From Rhodocollybia butyracea (taxonomy: Eukaryota > Basidiomycota > Agaricomycetes > Agaricales > Omphalotaceae), in the NCBI GenBank assembly GCA_015501585.1, contig JADNRY010000023.1, positions 62,001 to 126,000 on the forward strand: DNA of 64,000 bases. The letters run 5' to 3'. The notes beneath the pieces are model-generated. The model had not been told where the DNA came from. It was given only the letters and a program-made list of their open reading frames with translations, and did no database searches. Positions 48,094 through 56,489 of the stretch are shown here, piece by piece. Within the stretch, counting starts at the first letter, position 1. Each line of letters begins with the position of its first letter. Both the position numbers and the translations under genes were made by a program.

Positions 48094-51020
48094 ATGACAC
48101 AAGCCGACGATGCTCCTCTTAAAAAATCCAGAACATCTAATGCCTGCGACACTTGTCGAAAGAGGAAAGGCAAGGGCACTCCTTCATCGTCGATTCTAGT
48201 TCTTTAATGACACGATTCCAGTGAAATGTAAGCTCACAGTGCACAGGTGCATTCCGACATTATACATTTAATCCTTGGCAAGGTGATAGCGCGAATATGC
48301 CTGAAAACATCTGTTCAGAATGTATAAAATGGAAGACGGAATGTACACATGTTATGGGGAAGAGGGTGTGTTTCACGAACTTAAACCGTGTCTGAAATAC
48401 TGACATATTTCTTAGAAACGCGGTCCCAAAGCGGCAGGGCAAGTAGCCTCATTAAAACCAAATATACTCGAATGAACTTCCTCATACAGATTATTCCGAA
48501 AGCCCATCGCGCACAAGGCAAATTTAAATGACCTGGTTTCTTCTATCGTCGACTCCGTAGATGCTTACACGCTTCCTGAGGATATGCGATTTGTTAAAGC
48601 TTTAGTCATTGATCTTGCTCTTCACGTTCGCTGTTTGGAGGTGGAACTAAAACAAATCCGTGGATCCACTTCGTCTTCTAGTTCCTCAAATCACAGCGAT
48701 ACTCCCAGGTACCCCAATTCCGTCGATATCGCAGATCAAGGCGGGGGGCATTCCCAAGAAGTTGATGACCTGGGCGATCCGGTGGACCCTCTTGCCTTGA
48801 ATCAAAAACACTATGGCGGCTCTAGTACATTCCAATTGGTCCAGAATGCGCTCAATGTCAAAGGTGAACTCATTGGAGTCCATAACCCAACACTTGCGAT
48901 CTCGAAGCGACCTGAGTTCTGGGAAGTACCCAAGGTATATAATCCGTCTTTGGTTCGGACAAGAAGCTGATAATCTCTCAGTGGCAAGCTTACCCTCAGC
49001 CTGAGTCCCCGCCTTACTCCTTTCCGGATCCAGATCTTCTTGCGTTACTGGTTAGATTATTTTTTGAGAAAATACATCCTTATTTCCCTATGTTACATCG
49101 CCCAAGTTTCGAGAAATCAGTCTCTGAAGGTCTACATATGACCGATAAAGGCTTCGGAGCAGTCTTGCTGATGGTCTGTAGTCTGGCTTCTCAGCAGTCG
49201 AACGATCTGCGAACTCTGTCGGAAGGAACTGACTCGGAACACAGTCAAGGCTGGAGGTATTATCGACAAATTCAAGTTGTTCATCAACCGTTCGAAGATG
49301 TACATTCCATATATGAATTTCAGCTCTATCCGGTGAGTTATGTTTGGGTCAGATGCAGGTCACAAGGGTGGTGCTCACTGTCTGTATTATAGCTATCTAC
49401 TCTTTACCTCCATACATCGAATGTTGCTGGTGCACCGTTCTTCTTTATTGCATTGGGAATGCGTGCTGCTCAGCAGAAAGGTGTTCACGAACCACAATTT
49501 GTGGTTCTGGATAATCCCCTTGAAACCGAATTGTGGAAACGCGCATTCTGGTGCCTCGTAGTTCTTGATGTATACGGCAGCACTTCGTTGGGTAGACCAC
49601 GGGCAACGGTTGCTGAAGAGTTAGTTTCACTCGTTGCTCCTTCCCGTTGAATCTCATCGTCTGCTAGTTTTGACGTAGCATTCCCTCAAGAGTGCCATGA
49701 TGAATATCGGGAGGTCTCCGATTCGCTCTTTTCCCGAAAACCATCGATCATGTCATTTTGGACCCACTATCTCAAAATCATTAATATTATTGGCTTTGCG
49801 CACAAGATCCTCTACTCAGTTAGAAAGTCGGAACTGTGGAGCGGCACGGATATCGCTCCTTCTGACTGGATTCGAAAAGCCGTAATTGAACTGGACTCAA
49901 TGCTTAATACGTGGGTTGATTCGGTCCCAGCGCATTGTGAGTATCATCGTACCGCAGTTGGACACATGTCCTTATTCGCTGTTTAGTGATATGGAACCCG
50001 CAAGTTCTTCATACCGATGAGATTTTCTTGAACCAATCGGCTATGCTTTACGCTACGTACTGTTGGGCTCAGTTTCAAGGTACGGCGTTTAACTACTTTT
50101 GCTTCAGCATCTTGATGTAGTTCATAGTACACAAATCATTCATCTCTCAATCTGAAAGCTTTCCGACATTCCCGTCTCTTACCATCGTTGCCAACGCGGC
50201 CCGCGTATGCGTTAATGTACTTGAGGTACAACACCTTCGACAACCTTTTGTTCCTCTACCCCTTATCATCGTAAATACCACTCGATTCATTCGCAAATTA
50301 CAGCTGACAAGCTTCTAGGGACCTCTCTTCGATTCCGCTATCGTTCTGTTGATGAACCTCTGGAGAGGCTTACGAAACATGGTTGCACTGGACTCAAAGA
50401 AAGAAATGGATGGTGTGTACAAGTGTATCGACATGCTGAGCATGTTTGAGAAACGGTGCGTACGGCCGTCTTTACGATCTCAATTGAACTGACCGGCCTT
50501 GAAATTAGATTCCAAGTCGGTGGCCGTTTATGGTACGTACTTACGATAGATGCTGTCTCCTCAACCTGACATTTTTTGTAGCGACATTTTAAATAGTATC
50601 ATCATCTCAGTAGGCAAGCTACCGCCGATGCCTGAACGGCGTTCGATGAAGCGCACAGAAAGCTCTTCACCTGAAGATCAACCATCTCCTTGGGAGGGAA
50701 CTAGCTCATCTGCGCAAATGCATCTGGGCTCTCAAGATCATACCTTCCACTCCACTCATCTTGACAGTGTTATACTGCCTTGCCACTCACACGAGCTTGG
50801 CACACTACCCTTGCACAGCTCATGGGATCCCGCACCCAACCCATCACTTTACACCGAAGGAGCGTTGCCATCACATTTGGCTGTCAGTAACGACTGGGCA
50901 ACCGCTCTTGAACCATACCAGGAAGATTGGGATTCATTTATGGAAGGAGTGGACCACCTTCTACATTCGATACAAGCAAGCAATTTTGCAGGAGAACCCA
51001 ATACCATTCCAAGTATCTAA
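48094..51020 (+). CDS. Zn2Cys6 transcription factor with fungal-specific TF domain
   Basis: A multi-exon gene, start MTQADDAPLKKSRTSNACDT. After splicing the zinc cluster reads ACDTCRKRKVKC, then DSANMPENICSECIKWKTEC, an exact CX2CX6CX9CX2CX6C. The third Cys comes from a 6-nt microexon (48222-48227) between a GC-AG intron (48170-48221) and a 55-nt intron (48228-48282). A basic stretch (GKRKRGPKAAGQ) follows. The fungal_trans domain runs from FFEKIHPYFPMLHRPSFEKS through YLHTSNVAGAPFFFIALGMR, LGRPRATVAEDFDVAFPQEC and WTHYLKIINIIGFAHKILYS. The C-terminus is acidic/Ser-rich and could activate transcription. Target genes are unknown. Its 3' end is convergent with the snoRNA host gene. Confidence 0.9.
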
Positions 51021-51105
51021 GCACATAACTCGTTGAAGCTTGATATTTAATTCTAATACTGAGAACCGAATAATTAGCACAAGTTTTTTTACAAATGAAA
51101 GCTAG

Positions 51106-51194
51106 AATTTCAGTAGATGTAGAATTCAATCAATGCATGGATAGCTCAGAAACAGCTTCTAGTTGATAATTTTTTTTACATATTCATCAAGGAA
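51106..51194 (-). ncRNA. Candidate C/D box snoRNA, 25S target
   Basis: C box TTGATGA at 51184-51190, D' CTGA at 51146-51149, D box CTGA at 51110-51113. The sequence before D, ATTCTACATC, pairs with the conserved 25S segment GGUGUAGAAU with one G-U pair, pointing at the first U. That could correspond to a known domain IV methylated U, but I am unsure of the number. It lies in a 173-nt intron (51059-51231) with the same D-to-splice-site spacing as the other four, which supports the call. Confidence 0.62.
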
Positions 51195-51311
51195 AAATGT
51201 AGGGGGAAAATATAGCTACAACCACACTTACCGATATTCGAACCTTGTTGATGACGATGGGGTCTAAAAGAATAGGTAAGTAAAGACTAGAAATAGGCCA
51301 GAAAGGTAATT

Positions 51312-51403
51312 GATATCAGAGGGGGTTGCCCGAAGAAATTGAGCTGTGGCGGGCACTTTCGGCAGTAATAGTACGAAGACCGTCGTGATAAAACATCATG
51401 GAA
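51312..51403 (-). ncRNA. C/D box snoRNA, 25S A2946/C2948 region guide (snR71/snR69-like)
   Basis: C box ATGATGT at 51393-51399 and D box CTGA at 51316-51319. Just after the C box, TCACGACGGTCT (51377-51388) is a 12-nt antisense match to the conserved 25S segment AGACCGUCGUGA. The D' box is degenerate, so the exact target is A2946 or C2948 (yeast numbers), depending on where D' is placed. The D-box guide, GGGCAACCCCC, is unassigned. It lies in the 166-nt intron 51264-51429. Confidence 0.8.
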
Positions 51404-51540
51404 GAGACAAGGAACGGGCAAAAACTCACCAAAGCGATAACCATGTCCAGCGTATAGCTCAGGAACAAAGCCGATAAAATCAAGCTAACACCTATTGAAA
51501 AGCAATGAGCAAAATAGTACGAGATGCGTATTATGATGAC

Positions 51541-51636
51541 AGGCTCAGTGTTTATAAAAACAGCCTTGGAATTGTCGTCAACAACAAAACTCGAAAGTAT
51601 GTCTCAGGCGGTAACTCCATTTATATCATCAAAGGA
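51541..51636 (-). ncRNA. C/D box snoRNA, 18S U578 guide (snR77-like)
   Basis: C box TTGATGA at 51626-51632, internal D' box CTGA at 51604-51607, D box CTGA at 51545-51548. The guide before D', TGGAGTTACCGC, pairs with the 18S 530-loop segment GCGGUAAUUCCA over 12 bp with one G-U pair. The D'+5 position pairs with the U after GG, U578 in yeast, the snR77 site. The second guide, before the D box (CTGTTTTTATAAACA), has no target I recognise. It lies in the 172-nt intron 51492-51663. Confidence 0.85.
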
Positions 51637-51756
51637 AGAGGAAGGTAGAGAAAAGATGCTGACCATGGTCGATAATAGGCGAAGTCGGCTTGAGGGGGAA
51701 ACATATCTGTGGAACGCAAGTAAATAACCATACGAAGACAACAATGCAAGGACGAA

Positions 51757-51846
51757 AGGTTCAGTGGATTGACAGATATGTTGAAAGCATTGGGCCTAAA
51801 AGGCGCTCATATACTCTAGTTTGAATGATTTTGAATCATCATTTGA
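51757..51846 (-). ncRNA. C/D box snoRNA, 18S U1269 guide (snR55-like)
   Basis: A perfect C box ATGATGA at 51836-51842 and D box CTGA at 51761-51764. The sequence before the D box, ATCTGTCAATCC, is a 12-nt perfect antisense match to the universal 18S segment GGAUUGACAGAU. The D+5 position pairs with the first U, which is U1269 in yeast, methylated there by snR55. It lies in the 188-nt intron 51707-51894. Confidence 0.88.
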
Positions 51847-51991
51847 AAGGGAGATATGGGATGGGAAAGGGAAAAAAGGACAGCATAGACTCACCGCAAA
51901 CAATATGTCCACAGCATACTACCCAGCCCGGTGAGAGAGCCAAAACTTCCTGGAAAAGTATTAGCGTTATGGAAAGCATAAAAAAGCAGAA

Positions 51992-52086
51992 CCGATCAGT
52001 GTAACTATGACAAAAAAGTACACATCGTGTCAAAAAATAGGTAGCTCTCGACACTCGATAGGAAATGGAAAATTTTCATCGTTTCG
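51992..52086 (-). ncRNA. C/D box snoRNA, 25S A2256 guide (snR63-like)
   Basis: C box ACGATGA at 52076-52082 (minus) and D box CTGA at 51996-51999. A 3-bp CGA/TCG stem flanks the boxes. The element upstream of the D box, GTCATAGTTAC, is antisense to the universal 25S segment GUAACUAUGAC. The fifth nucleotide before the D box pairs with the second A of GUAAC, which is A2256 in yeast numbering, a known 2'-O-methyl site. It lies in the 166-nt intron 51950-52115. Confidence 0.85.
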
Positions 52087-52300
52087 AGTTGGTAAACAGG
52101 GCATCATGTACTCACAATTCATTCTTCTAGTCAGCAAAGAAAAACATTAGAGACGCAGGAAACAACGTGAAGCAATGGAATAAGAAGAGCAAAGAGATTT
52201 TTTTTTTCGTTTTGTAACGTGACTTTAGGGCAGGTTTTTCTCACCACATTTAGACGCCGAACACTGGGCGTTTCGCGTCACATGTCCTATCGAGACATTC

Positions 52301-54168
52301 CTCGTTCCTTTCATCCCCCCCGTTCCTCACCTTGATTCCCTCGTAAATTCTGCCAAAAGGAAATGCAACATACGAGCTACCTTCTCGTAACCTCTTGAGC
52401 CAGCCGCCCCAAGCTCTGGCCTGGACGTAGAAGCATGATCTCAGATCTCCAAACCATATTATTATTAACGCATAAGTATAACTCCCCAAATGAGTCCTTT
52501 CGATCAATAAAAGTAAACGCAGTCTTGACCTCCCTGGAGAGGAAAAGACTCCGACTCCCTGCTGACTTTGTCCGCGTACTCGAAATAATTGGGGAGACCT
52601 TCATTTGTGAGCAGAATCGTCGGGGTGTTCGTATTTTTGTGCCCAAACTCCTGCAAGTTGATAACATGTCCATTATATACAGGTCGGGCCAAAGACGAAG
52701 AAACAAACCCTCTTTAGGGTACTTACTAGTTACTACAGCTTCGCCAAAACGCCACGCGATCCCTTGAGTCGTTAACATCTTTTCTGAGCTCAGTTCCGTG
52801 CTTCGAGTGGCGCGGGATGACTTTCAAGCCGAGGCCTCTGATTCAATCATGCGGTTTACCAGATCCAAGCAGCACGACTTTGGGCATATATTGTCCGCAG
52901 GAAGCGATTCTTGAGGAAGTCCATTTGTTCATCCCCATGAGACACGCACCTCCGTATCGTCTCCTGGTGTCAAGGCTGGAGGAAATAAAGATGACGACTC
53001 CATGATTGTGGGAGAAACATATATCATATCAGAGGAGAGTGGTAGTCCGGGGATTCTACCTCTTCCAACTCACCTGGCGGCAACAGCTGTTGAAGGGGTC
53101 GAGGGCTCTCTTGTTCCATTGGTTCAACATTCCAAAGGCTCACCTCACATCGGAATGGATGATCGCAGTGTTGATATTCATTCAGCTCCCGTCGAATCGC
53201 CAAACTCCAACGACACAGGCGATACCTATACCTATACCGGACCACATTGTATCACTTTGACGAATTCAGCTCTGCCGCTAGTATTTTTGGACCGGATTTC
53301 TGGACCGGTCTCTCCAGGCGTTACTTTACCACTTCTTCCGTCAAGGCACCAGTTTGGTGTGTCCACAAGCTCGGAATTTGTTCATGATTTTGAATCCTCC
53401 AGTTGTCCACCGCTATCTTCTTTCGATATTCAGGACAAAGCGCTAGCACTAGTAATAGTTGCCTTGGCTCCAATGTCACTTCTCACATAGCCGAAAATAT
53501 GGACCATAAACCATAGACGTTCGAGGAATCCCCGCGTTTGATGAGCACCGTCATCCTGTGAGAATTACCAGCTATCGAAGAGCTTTCTTTCGAATTGACT
53601 ACTGCTAGTGACATGTGCTTGTCCGCCTAGTAAATCCCCCTTCAGGATACAGACTTACAGGACCCTCGACTTACGAATAGAATGCCGCTTGCCACATAAA
53701 CGATGTGGTGCCAGGGGCAAAGGTAAGGTTGCGCCAACGTACTGGCGTCGAGAGAAGTTCGGATGGACAAAGATAGCAAAAGGAGGAGTGAAAAAGGCAT
53801 ACACAGCAGATCTTACCGAGATGAATCAAAGAACTGGAGAGCCGGCCCCCGATAGGAAGGCCTCTCCAGCACATCGTTCTTTCTTTACCAGTATTCTTCC
53901 ATTTGCTATGGAACAAGCACAATCAAATGACTGTTTGTCTTCTGACCGGATTGCTGTACGCGCCACACCATTCCGCTCGATGTTCATGAACACGAAGTGA
54001 ATAGAAATAAAAGTAAAAGGACATCAAGAGGATATAGGCATATATATGCGAAGGAAAAGCATGTGCTAAACCGACGCGGGAATTGAATCGTTCAGGAAAA
54101 GAAGAAGCAAGTTAAGTATAGTACAGAGTTCATCAAGATTCGTCATGTATCTTTTGTTTCATTAACGT
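52301..54168. other. Region with uncertain open frames
   Basis: Contains the likely promoter of the minus-strand snoRNA host gene and the 3' flank of the oxalate decarboxylase. Plus-strand open frames at 52435-52767, 53002-53490 and 53608-54000 have no recognised domain. The middle one continues upstream in frame (GSPFVHPHETRTSVSSPG) beyond a TGA near 52912, to RVARDDFQAEASDSIMRFTR, suggesting a decayed gene. Confidence 0.4.
52780..53490 (+). pseudogene. Possible decayed ORF with in-frame stop
   Basis: One reading frame runs from about 52780 through SKQHDFGHILSAGSDS, a TGA near 52912, then on to residues including MIVGETYIISEESGSPG, ending at 53490. Composition on both sides of the stop is alike (Ser/Gly/Asp-rich). 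No homologue is recognised. An intron across the stop is possible, but I see no good pair of sites. Confidence 0.25.
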
Positions 54169-56489
54169 TCATCCAATAACAACTGGTTTGGTCTTCGACA
54201 ACTTCGAAATGGTCTCGTCATCTAGGTTGAGATGGGCTTTGACCAAAGACGGTGGCGTCAGTGCCAACCACTGGGCGAACAAGAATCAATGGCGCATTCA
54301 ACAAAAACGCTCGAAAGTGACCCACCTGGTTCAAACTGATATCCTGGAATTTATCTATCGCGATATCGTTAAGCAAGTAAAACATTATTGACACAAAGTC
54401 TCTAACCTGTACTGAAGATCTCAAGGTAGCGCAACGTTGTGTTCCCGGTGTTTTCCACGTAATGACCTAAGAGGTATGTATTCAGAATTTAAGAAAAGTT
54501 GGTCGGGGTTGTGGGTACGTACCCATTGCAGTAGGGATGTATCCTATTTGTGAGGGTTTATACATCACTGGGCATTCCCCGAAGGCACTAAACACATACC
54601 TATGTCTCCAGCCTGATAGTTGAACGTCCTTGCGTTGCTACTAGAAGCAAAAACGGTAACGCGCGCAGTTCCTTCCCTGTTATGAAATCATGAGTATGTT
54701 GGTGGTTGAGAGTGGTTTTACACACAGGAAGTAGTCCCATTCATCCATGGCCATTGTGGGGTGCCACTTCAGATGCTAGTTAATCAAAATCCTAGACGGT
54801 GAGCATAACACTTACGTGGAGTTCTCTGTAAATATTCCGAGTAAGTAGAGGTGGAAAAATGACCGTATAATTTGGCCTACCGCATCGCTCCTGGCTCAAC
54901 CGTCACTTCTGCTACCGCGATAGTAGTTGCGATAGGGAAGATCGTCGAATCAACAACCTTCACAGATCCTCCAGACAACTGAGTTGCGTTATAGGTGGAC
55001 AGGGGGAATGTATATGACTGAGGTGCTGTTCCCTGAGGGCTGACAGGCACCTGTTGATCATCAGAAGGAACAACTGAGAGAATCCTCGTCAGTCGACAGA
55101 ATCGGATGAGCAGACGGAACATACGACTGGGGAAAATGTATAGCTCTTTGCCGGGGATATGTGCAAATGCTGACGGATCAACTTGGAAATTCTTGGCAAT
55201 AACTTCGGCTGGAACGTGATCCAACCAATCGGTTAGCTAGATTTTGTGCACATGAGTTCTCCGTAGACCAGAAATGAATGCAAGATCTTACCAGGAACGT
55301 AGAATCCTCGCTAAAGGCACCATCATCGAAGACCTATACAGAATTATGTTGCGTGTACAAGTTCAGTCCGCAAATAACTCACAAGAAGAAATTCAGAACC
55401 GTCGGGGTCATCTCCCGTAGCTTGAAGAGAATGGGGGATGCCAGGTGGCATATACCTGATCTCTTATAAACGACGTGTCCGACGATTGATACATTGATAT
55501 ACATACCATATGTCGCCAGCTTTCTGCAGTATAGCATAAGATGAAGTATATGGAAGGATACTTAGAAGACGGAAACGTACCACACTGCCTATAAAGTTTC
55601 TGCCTTCACCATCGACAGTAGTAATCTGGGTTGTGCCCTAGTAAACACTTAGCTCACAACAGTACGCAAGATCATTATGCTCAAAACGAACTTTCAAAAC
55701 GTAGGCCCACTAGATATACGTTCGGTATTAATAAGACCATTGCGAGAGTTAATAGCTGTCCTACCTCTGCTGTCGAATGCCAATGGAGTTCTCTGGCCGA
55801 TCCAACGCGATAAGTTTGAGGCTAACGAAAGAGAGAAATACTAACCGGATGGCACCAGCTTCTAAACGCATATTGACGCCGGCCATTGCTAAACATATAA
55901 CATTAGTATTCGCCTTGCCACGTCGATAATTAAAGACTACCTGTTGCTATTGGTAGGCTTGCGACATTCTGTTGCCTAGCCCAACCACCTGTTTGAAGAC
56001 GATTGGGACTTAGCGAAAATGACCATTTTGAGTTACCCCTTTATAACCGATGTGTTAGAGGGGAAGCACTTCGCATCAAGTTTTCACTTACGTGGCACCA
56101 TTATCGGTAGTCGGTGGGGCAAACATATCGGGATTCTCGAGTTCCAGGGGTATGTTTTCGGGTCCTAGCAAGGGGGCTCCAAGAGATCCTCTCATTGGGC
56201 TCGGGGCCGAATCAGGGCTGGTAAGATTCCATAGGATGTCGTTGGGATTTGTGCTAGCGAAGCCAGCAGTGGTCACTGAAAGAGCAGCAGAGCCTGCGGA
56301 TGAAGGAGCTGCCGATGTGGCCTTGGTAACACTAGAGTTGGATGGTGCGGCAGTGGTTACTGGGAGAGTAGCAGAGCTGGATGAATGAGCTGCCGAAGCA
56401 CTCTCAGTAACATTGATGTTGGATGGTGCGGGTGCTGAGGTAGCGAGTCTAAGTGCGATGAGGACAATGAGGAAGGTGAGTTTCGCCAT
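54169..56489 (-). CDS. Secreted bicupin oxalate decarboxylase
   Basis: A gene of many small exons, start MAKLTFLIVLIALRLATSAP (signal peptide). An Ser/Thr/Ala-rich linker of about 80 residues precedes the enzyme. Cupin 1 has KWSFSLSPNRLQTGGWARQQ, ELHWHSTAEWAYVLKGTTQI and YMPPGIPHSLQATGDDPDG. Cupin 2 has VEPGAMRELHWHP, then DEWDYFLEGTARVTVFA and GHYVENTGNTTLRYLEIF. Each cupin keeps the His-His-Glu and distal His metal ligands. The end is DISLNQWLALTPPSLVKAHL. The enzyme converts oxalate to formate and CO2 with Mn, and in wood- and litter-decay fungi it limits extracellular oxalate. HPTMAMDEW is slightly longer than the usual cupin-2 motif. A TATA-like box lies about 35-40 bp upstream. Confidence 0.93.

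Follow-up and report, generated by a model that had tools for sequence, protein, structure and literature searches.

A putative non-coding host gene with five intronic box C/D snoRNAs in Rhodocollybia butyracea, most likely a modified fungal snoRNA cluster I

Organization of the locus

The 64,000-nucleotide stretch of Rhodocollybia butyracea DNA analyzed here (hereafter referred to as the window) contains a putative multi-intron gene on its minus strand, whose six consecutive GT-AG introns can be read in the sequence between positions 52244 and 51059:

52127..52244, minus strand: intron 1, 118 nt, GTGAG...CTGACTAG, CTAAT branch motif 21 nt from its end
51950..52115, minus strand: intron 2, host of sno1, 166 nt, GTGAGT...TTCCAG, branch motif CTAAT
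51707..51894, minus strand: intron 3, host of sno2, 188 nt, GTGAGT...CCACAG, branch motif TTTAC
51492..51663, minus strand: intron 4, host of sno3, 172 nt, GTCAGC...AATAG, branch motif CTCAT
51264..51429, minus strand: intron 5, host of sno4, 166 nt, GTGAGT...TTTTAG, branch motif TTTAC/CTTAC
51059..51231, minus strand: intron 6, host of sno5, 173 nt, GTAAGT...TCTCAG, branch motif CTAAT

The exons between these introns measure 11, 55, 43, 62 and 32 nt. A first-pass annotation of the same DNA had described six consecutive introns separated by exons of 11-62 nt, the last five of them 166-188 nt long, and this description holds. No snoRNA was detected in intron 1, whose 5' splice site is the least certain of all.

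The adjacent plus-strand gene (49090-51020 in the window) encodes a fungal transcription factor, identified by a Fungal_trans match (PF04082, E 2.6e-10). Its script-made, 5'-incomplete gene model includes seven introns; six measure 47-60 nt and the remaining one 87 nt, and it is against the mostly 47-60 nt introns of this single neighbor that the introns of the snoRNA host are judged to be long. A homolog search with one exon of this gene as query returned no match. The transcription factor gene is convergent with the snoRNA host, with 38 nt between its stop codon (ending at 51020) and the end of intron 6 (51059), so that the host's final exon may overlap with the 3' end of the transcription factor gene.

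Box C/D elements and Rfam support

Introns 2 to 6 each contain a predicted box C/D snoRNA with a C box, a D box and at least one guide, as previously claimed. The coordinates below run from C box to D box, followed by those of the guides.

51996..52082, minus strand: sno1, snR63/U46-like; D guide 52011-52001 to 25S A2256, 11 bp
51761..51842, minus strand: sno2, double guide; D' guide 51824-51813 to 25S U2421 (snR78/U52), 12 bp, no G-U
51777-51766, minus strand: second guide of sno2, D guide to 18S U1231, 12 bp, no G-U
51545..51632, minus strand: sno3, snR77/HBII-135-like; D' guide 51619-51608 to 18S U578, 12 bp, one G-U
51316..51399, minus strand: sno4, snR73/U35-like; guide 51388-51377 to 25S C2959, 12 bp, D' box CGTA
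51110..51190, minus strand: sno5, U95/snoR33/Neurospora crassa CD28-like; D' guide 51169-51150 to 25S A1867

The D box is an exact CTGA in all five RNAs. The C boxes of introns 2 to 6 read ACGATGA, ATGATGA, TTGATGA, ATGATGT and TTGATGA; measured against RUGAUGA, one of them is exact and the other four carry one mismatch, with the UGAUGA core exact in three of the five. From the start of the C box to the end of the D box the five RNAs span 81-88 nt, within the 60-100 nt range expected for this class. The D' box of sno4 (CGTA) is degenerate and departs from the consensus. A terminal stem adjoining the C and D boxes is found only in sno1 (-3.7 kcal/mol); the best pairing in sno4 (-4.2 kcal/mol) involves sequence at a distance from the boxes, and there is hardly any terminal stem in sno2, sno3 and sno5.

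The spacing of the D box relative to the end of the intron is narrowly distributed, at 46, 54, 53, 52 and 51 nt for sno1 to sno5, in agreement with the 46-54 nt originally reported. The corresponding distances to the likely branch-point adenosine are 34, 39, 38, 34 or 38, and 35 nt; these are conditional values, because several adenosines close to the 3' splice site were candidates and the choice between them followed the motif.

A cmscan search of positions 50500-53200 with E values up to 5 returned six matches in all, five of which lie on the minus strand and belong to C/D snoRNA families, each of introns 2 to 6 containing one; the sixth is a miRNA family on the opposite strand, outside the introns. 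The individual scores are low: snR63 for sno1 (24.9 bits, E 5.9e-4, gathering score 50), snR78 for the 5' part of sno2 (21.3 bits, E 4.3, gathering 48), Afu_300 as best match for sno3 (19.5 bits, E 1.3, gathering 40), SNORD35 for sno4 (16.6 bits, E 3.8, gathering 36) and snR78 as best match for sno5 (28.3 bits, E 0.13, gathering 48). None of the five snoRNAs thus reaches its gathering score (16.6-28.3 bits versus 36-50), and no Rfam match at cut-off was obtained anywhere in the window. These sub-threshold scores lower the certainty of the family names, but not that of the C/D class. For sno5, the snR78 label conflicts with the predicted pairing to A1867, and we trusted the pairing over the label.

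Guide elements and rRNA targets

Guide pairing was evaluated against rRNA sequences of S. cerevisiae (1800 nt for 18S, 3396 nt for 25S), used in place of the rRNA of the species itself. In the portion of the published yeast methylation table that was compared (PMC8307265), the sequences used carry the listed methyl nucleotide at all 19 positions checked, with seven further 25S positions (805-908) lying outside the comparison. The rRNA segments around 18S U1231 and 25S C2959 match both the Rfam rRNA consensus and two contigs; among five pattern scans for eukaryotic rRNA in viral_contigs, two gave one match each (L001 and L002), comprising a partial 18S and a partial 25S. Patterns for the 18S U1231 and 25S A1867 regions had no exact match in the R. 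butyracea genome (95.6 Mb, 1381 contigs), so rDNA seems to be absent from this assembly or different in it.

The five RNAs carry six predicted rRNA guides, and all six place a listed 2'-O-methyl site at the fifth nucleotide from box D or D' within an antisense element of at least 10 nt. The first-pass annotation had counted four guides, three of them at known sites. The guides it recognized are confirmed in the sequence, and the revised count adds those to U2421 (intron 3) and A1867 (intron 6), which it had overlooked. Its assignments to 18S U578 and 25S A2256 stand, the latter site being present in both the yeast and the N. crassa methylation tables (PMC8307265; PMC2780460). Its other two named targets have to be replaced: the guide attributed to 18S U1269 pairs with GGATTGACAGAT and points to U1231, and that attributed to 25S A2946/C2948 pairs with AGACCGTCGTGA and points to C2959. 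Two pattern matches that might have encoded a U1269 guide (L008 and L009) were set aside as chance occurrences, since neither matched an Rfam family at E up to 1 and the upstream sequence examined contained no exact C-box core.

The sno5-A1867 duplex is the most extensive: of its 20 positions, 17 are Watson-Crick pairs, two are terminal G-U pairs and one is a mismatch relative to yeast. Neither U1231 nor A1867 appears in the examined parts of the yeast methyl-site table (PMC8307265). Both sites can be equated with N. crassa positions by a mapping of our own, based on the offset of the shared neighbors U1269/Um1265 and U1888/Um1866. On this mapping U1231 corresponds to Um1227, the target of CD44, with snR82 in S. 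pombe and HBII-55 in human, and A1867 corresponds to Am1845, the target of CD28, with U95 in human and snoR33 in plants; no S. cerevisiae homolog is listed for either in the part of the N. crassa table consulted (PMC2780460). No convincing rRNA target was found for a second guide on the D side of sno3, sno4 or sno5, or on the D' side of sno1; the best rRNA match on the D side of sno5 was 25S U2453, with two G-U pairs and a score of 10.

Chance controls

When every [AC]TGA box in the window, on either strand, was scored against 57 sites (55 from the yeast list plus U1231 and A1867, both taken from the N. crassa table once they had emerged as best duplexes), a score of at least 11 with the site at D+5 was obtained at six places, five of them in the locus, and a score of 10 at one further place outside it (50290). 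When rRNA positions drawn at random took the place of the 57 sites, in 1000 separate lists of 57, matches in the locus averaged 0.064 and never exceeded 2, compared with the 5 observed. Removing U1231 and A1867 reduces the [AC]TGA count in the locus to 3. The sixth guide, that of sno4 to C2959, entered the set by post hoc acceptance of the degenerate CGTA D' box. Leaving out U1231, A1867 and CGTA together, the three remaining guides (U2421, U578 and A2256) still exceed the random-list maximum.

A second control used 1000 dinucleotide shuffles of the locus, 39 sites and a threshold of at least 11 nt, with a box list that included CGTA and a site list that included U1231; the shuffles yielded a mean of 0.004 matches and a maximum of 1, compared with 5 in the real sequence. 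In this 39-site scan all five matches of at least 11 nt fell in the locus, with two 10-nt matches outside it. Duplex strength alone does not discriminate, as other scores of 12-15 arise by chance when the 1161 boxes of the window are compared with all rRNA positions; the A1867 guide of sno5 has the top duplex score (15.5) among these 1161 boxes.

The one place outside the locus that scored 11 or more in the 57-site scan, a snR41-type guide to 18S A541 at 55064 on the minus strand (score 11.5), has no C box in the upstream stretch examined and was dismissed as a chance match. Its complementarity adjoins a CTGA/ATGA-type box inside a 119-aa frame with no Pfam match, a frame that we take, from the way it reads, to be part of a cupin (oxalate decarboxylase) gene.

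Relationship to fungal cluster I

Fungal cluster I has been described as snR78-snR77-snR76-snR75-snR74-snR73-snR72 (Luo et al., 2013; PMC3596301). Because its snR78-, snR77- and snR73-type RNAs follow one another in cluster-I order, the R. butyracea locus is most likely a remnant of this cluster, apparently shortened, and with snR63 added on its 5' side and U95 on its 3' side. Of the remaining members, snR75 was located on another contig (L004 1486-1597, corresponding to C494 ~800083-800194, plus strand) with an Rfam RF01185 score of 66.5 bits against a cut-off of 40. It sits in a probable intron (L004 1463-1659), closely followed by the ATG of a PDCD2/TSR4-like reading frame, both pieces of which give a PDCD2_C match below cut-off. 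The position of snR75 outside cluster I parallels what is reported for some Basidiomycota, in which the introns of snR78, snR75 and snR72 now lie outside the cluster, and those of snR73, snR74, snR76 and snR77 have in some cases been lost (PMC3596301). Neither of the other two places that fit the snR75 pattern (L005 and L006) matched an Rfam family at E up to 1. No match in the genome was obtained with exact snR76 and snR72 patterns, and the sole match to the snR74 pattern (L007) scored 28.6 bits for SNORD27 against a cut-off of 52 in an alignment without a C box, and was rejected as fortuitous.

An alternative origin is that the snoRNAs are genuine but the locus is a fresh assembly of unrelated snoRNA introns. 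Two of the five members (snR63 and U95) are foreign to cluster I, snoRNA introns reportedly relocate from one fungal gene to another (PMC3596301), and three items would fall in the yeast order by chance once in six. Against these points, snR78, snR77 and snR73 share a single host and keep the published order, and we regard a fresh assembly as unlikely.

Coding potential of the host

Five of the six introns carry one snoRNA each, and the exons show no recognizable coding content. After splicing, exons 3-7 share an open minus-strand frame (51949 to ~50950) of 90 codons that is still open where the translated stretch stops. Such a frame could belong to a protein-coding host gene, with a short protein specified by exons 3-7 and the snoRNAs carried as passengers in the introns, as in ribosomal-protein genes. 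Several features argue against it: the ATG of exon 2 is stopped at the third codon (ATG AAT TGA), the open frame has no methionine before exon 5, exons 2-6 measure 11-62 nt, and the longest spliced frame has no Pfam match. Short open reading frames of 159-267 bp are, moreover, present in published N. crassa hosts (PMC2780460). Ten single frames around the locus had no Pfam match. A protein-coding host is accordingly very improbable. The early stop after the exon 2 ATG, together with the lack of a methionine before exon 5 and of a Pfam match in the 90-codon frame, makes the host exons look like throw-away RNA, and the reading of the locus as a multi-intron gene that makes no protein and hosts five box C/D snoRNAs, put forward in the first-pass annotation, is well supported by the sequence.

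Proposed processing and function

We consider it very probable that the locus is a spliced, non-coding pol II host carrying five intronic box C/D methylation guides; most likely it represents a shortened and extended cluster I. RNA polymerase II would transcribe the non-protein-coding host, the transcript would be spliced, and each of the last five introns would release one box C/D snoRNA from its lariat. Assembly of the snoRNP may be coupled to splicing as in animals, followed by debranching and trimming. This coupling is suggested by the fixed position of the D box, which precedes the likely branch-point adenosine by 34-39 nt, and the weak terminal stems are consistent with it. A search for Aquarius/IBP160 returned no match in the R. 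butyracea genome, and none in the control genomes either, so that its negative outcome carries no information. The mature snoRNAs would then direct fibrillarin-type 2'-O-methylation of 25S A1867, A2256, U2421 and C2959 and of 18S U578 and U1231. The contrary idea, that the introns carry decayed copies of snoRNAs whose working versions lie elsewhere, would fit the weak Rfam scores, the weak terminal stems and the off-consensus boxes, but it is highly implausible, given that all six guides keep at least 11 paired nucleotides in register with D or D' and that a whole-genome DNA search with the region, sensitive to close copies only, recovered the region itself and nothing else.

Beyond a guide function for the individual RNAs, cluster I might have been rebuilt here as a co-expressed set, with the snR63 and U95 introns recruited, the snR78 RNA gaining its U1231 guide and the methylations being set jointly through a single spliced transcript; we hold this to be rather doubtful. 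Among the sites, published tables assign U578 to the decoding center, A2256 to helix 69, U2421 to the E site and C2959 to the peptidyl transferase center (PMC8307265). If the locus were indeed such a co-expressed set, alternative splicing of the host, as seen for clusters I and II of N. crassa (PMC2780460), could tune these sites as a group.

The locus adds a well-defined intronic cluster in a fungal group in some species of which cluster I is reported to be partly scattered or lost (PMC3596301), and it combines a presumably retained snR78-snR77-snR73 core with a snR75 located elsewhere and a double guide. Its short introns, in which 34-39 nt separate the C/D snoRNA from the likely branch point, may also make it a useful case for the study of splicing-coupled assembly. 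The general picture of snoRNA organization is unchanged by it, since the arrangement is known in fungi and it is the mix of guides that is unusual.

Comparison with known snoRNA host genes

Vertebrate host genes of the UHG/GAS5 type have non-coding exons, one C/D snoRNA per intron and a preferred distance between snoRNA and branch point. In animals the optimal distance is ~50 nt and assembly involves Aquarius/IBP160 (PMC8162545), whereas the D boxes of the R. butyracea locus lie 34-39 nt from the likely branch-point adenosine.

The first-pass annotation had regarded a one-per-intron non-coding host as a distinct organization. This view is not supported, as the literature already describes such hosts in N. 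crassa, in Basidiomycota and in further fungi (Liu et al., 2009, PMC2780460; Luo et al., 2013, PMC3596301). Luo et al. (2013) describe clusters I, II and III as intronic, in non-protein-coding hosts, in the Euascomycetes, the Basidiomycota and the zygomycete Rhizopus that they studied, and take the unspliced yeast arrangement to be derived (PMC3596301), and Liu et al. (2009) report RT-PCR confirmation of non-coding hosts in N. crassa (PMC2780460). The exact composition of the R. butyracea locus and its U2421/U1231 double guide, for which no counterpart was seen among the open-licence papers and titles consulted, may be its only new points.

With cluster I as described (PMC3596301), the locus shares a non-coding host whose snoRNA-bearing introns hold a single C/D snoRNA each, and three of the seven members, snR78, snR77 and snR73, in identical order. 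It differs in that snR76, snR75, snR74 and snR72 are missing and snR63 and U95 have been added, and in that its snR78-type RNA also bears a U1231 guide. The UHG/gas5-like hosts of N. crassa (PMC2780460) resemble it in being spliced, non-coding hosts (splicing being predicted in our case) and in including double-guide RNAs. In N. crassa, the snR78 guide is combined with a snR72 guide in the double-guide RNA CD5, for which the authors suggest a recombination of guide halves (PMC2780460); in R. butyracea it is combined with a CD44-type U1231 guide. Likewise, snR63, CD44 and CD28 lie on N. crassa chromosomes III, IV and II, apart from the cluster-I members on chromosome VI (PMC2780460), whereas in R. 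butyracea their counterparts are found together with the snR78-snR77-snR73 core in a single putative host.
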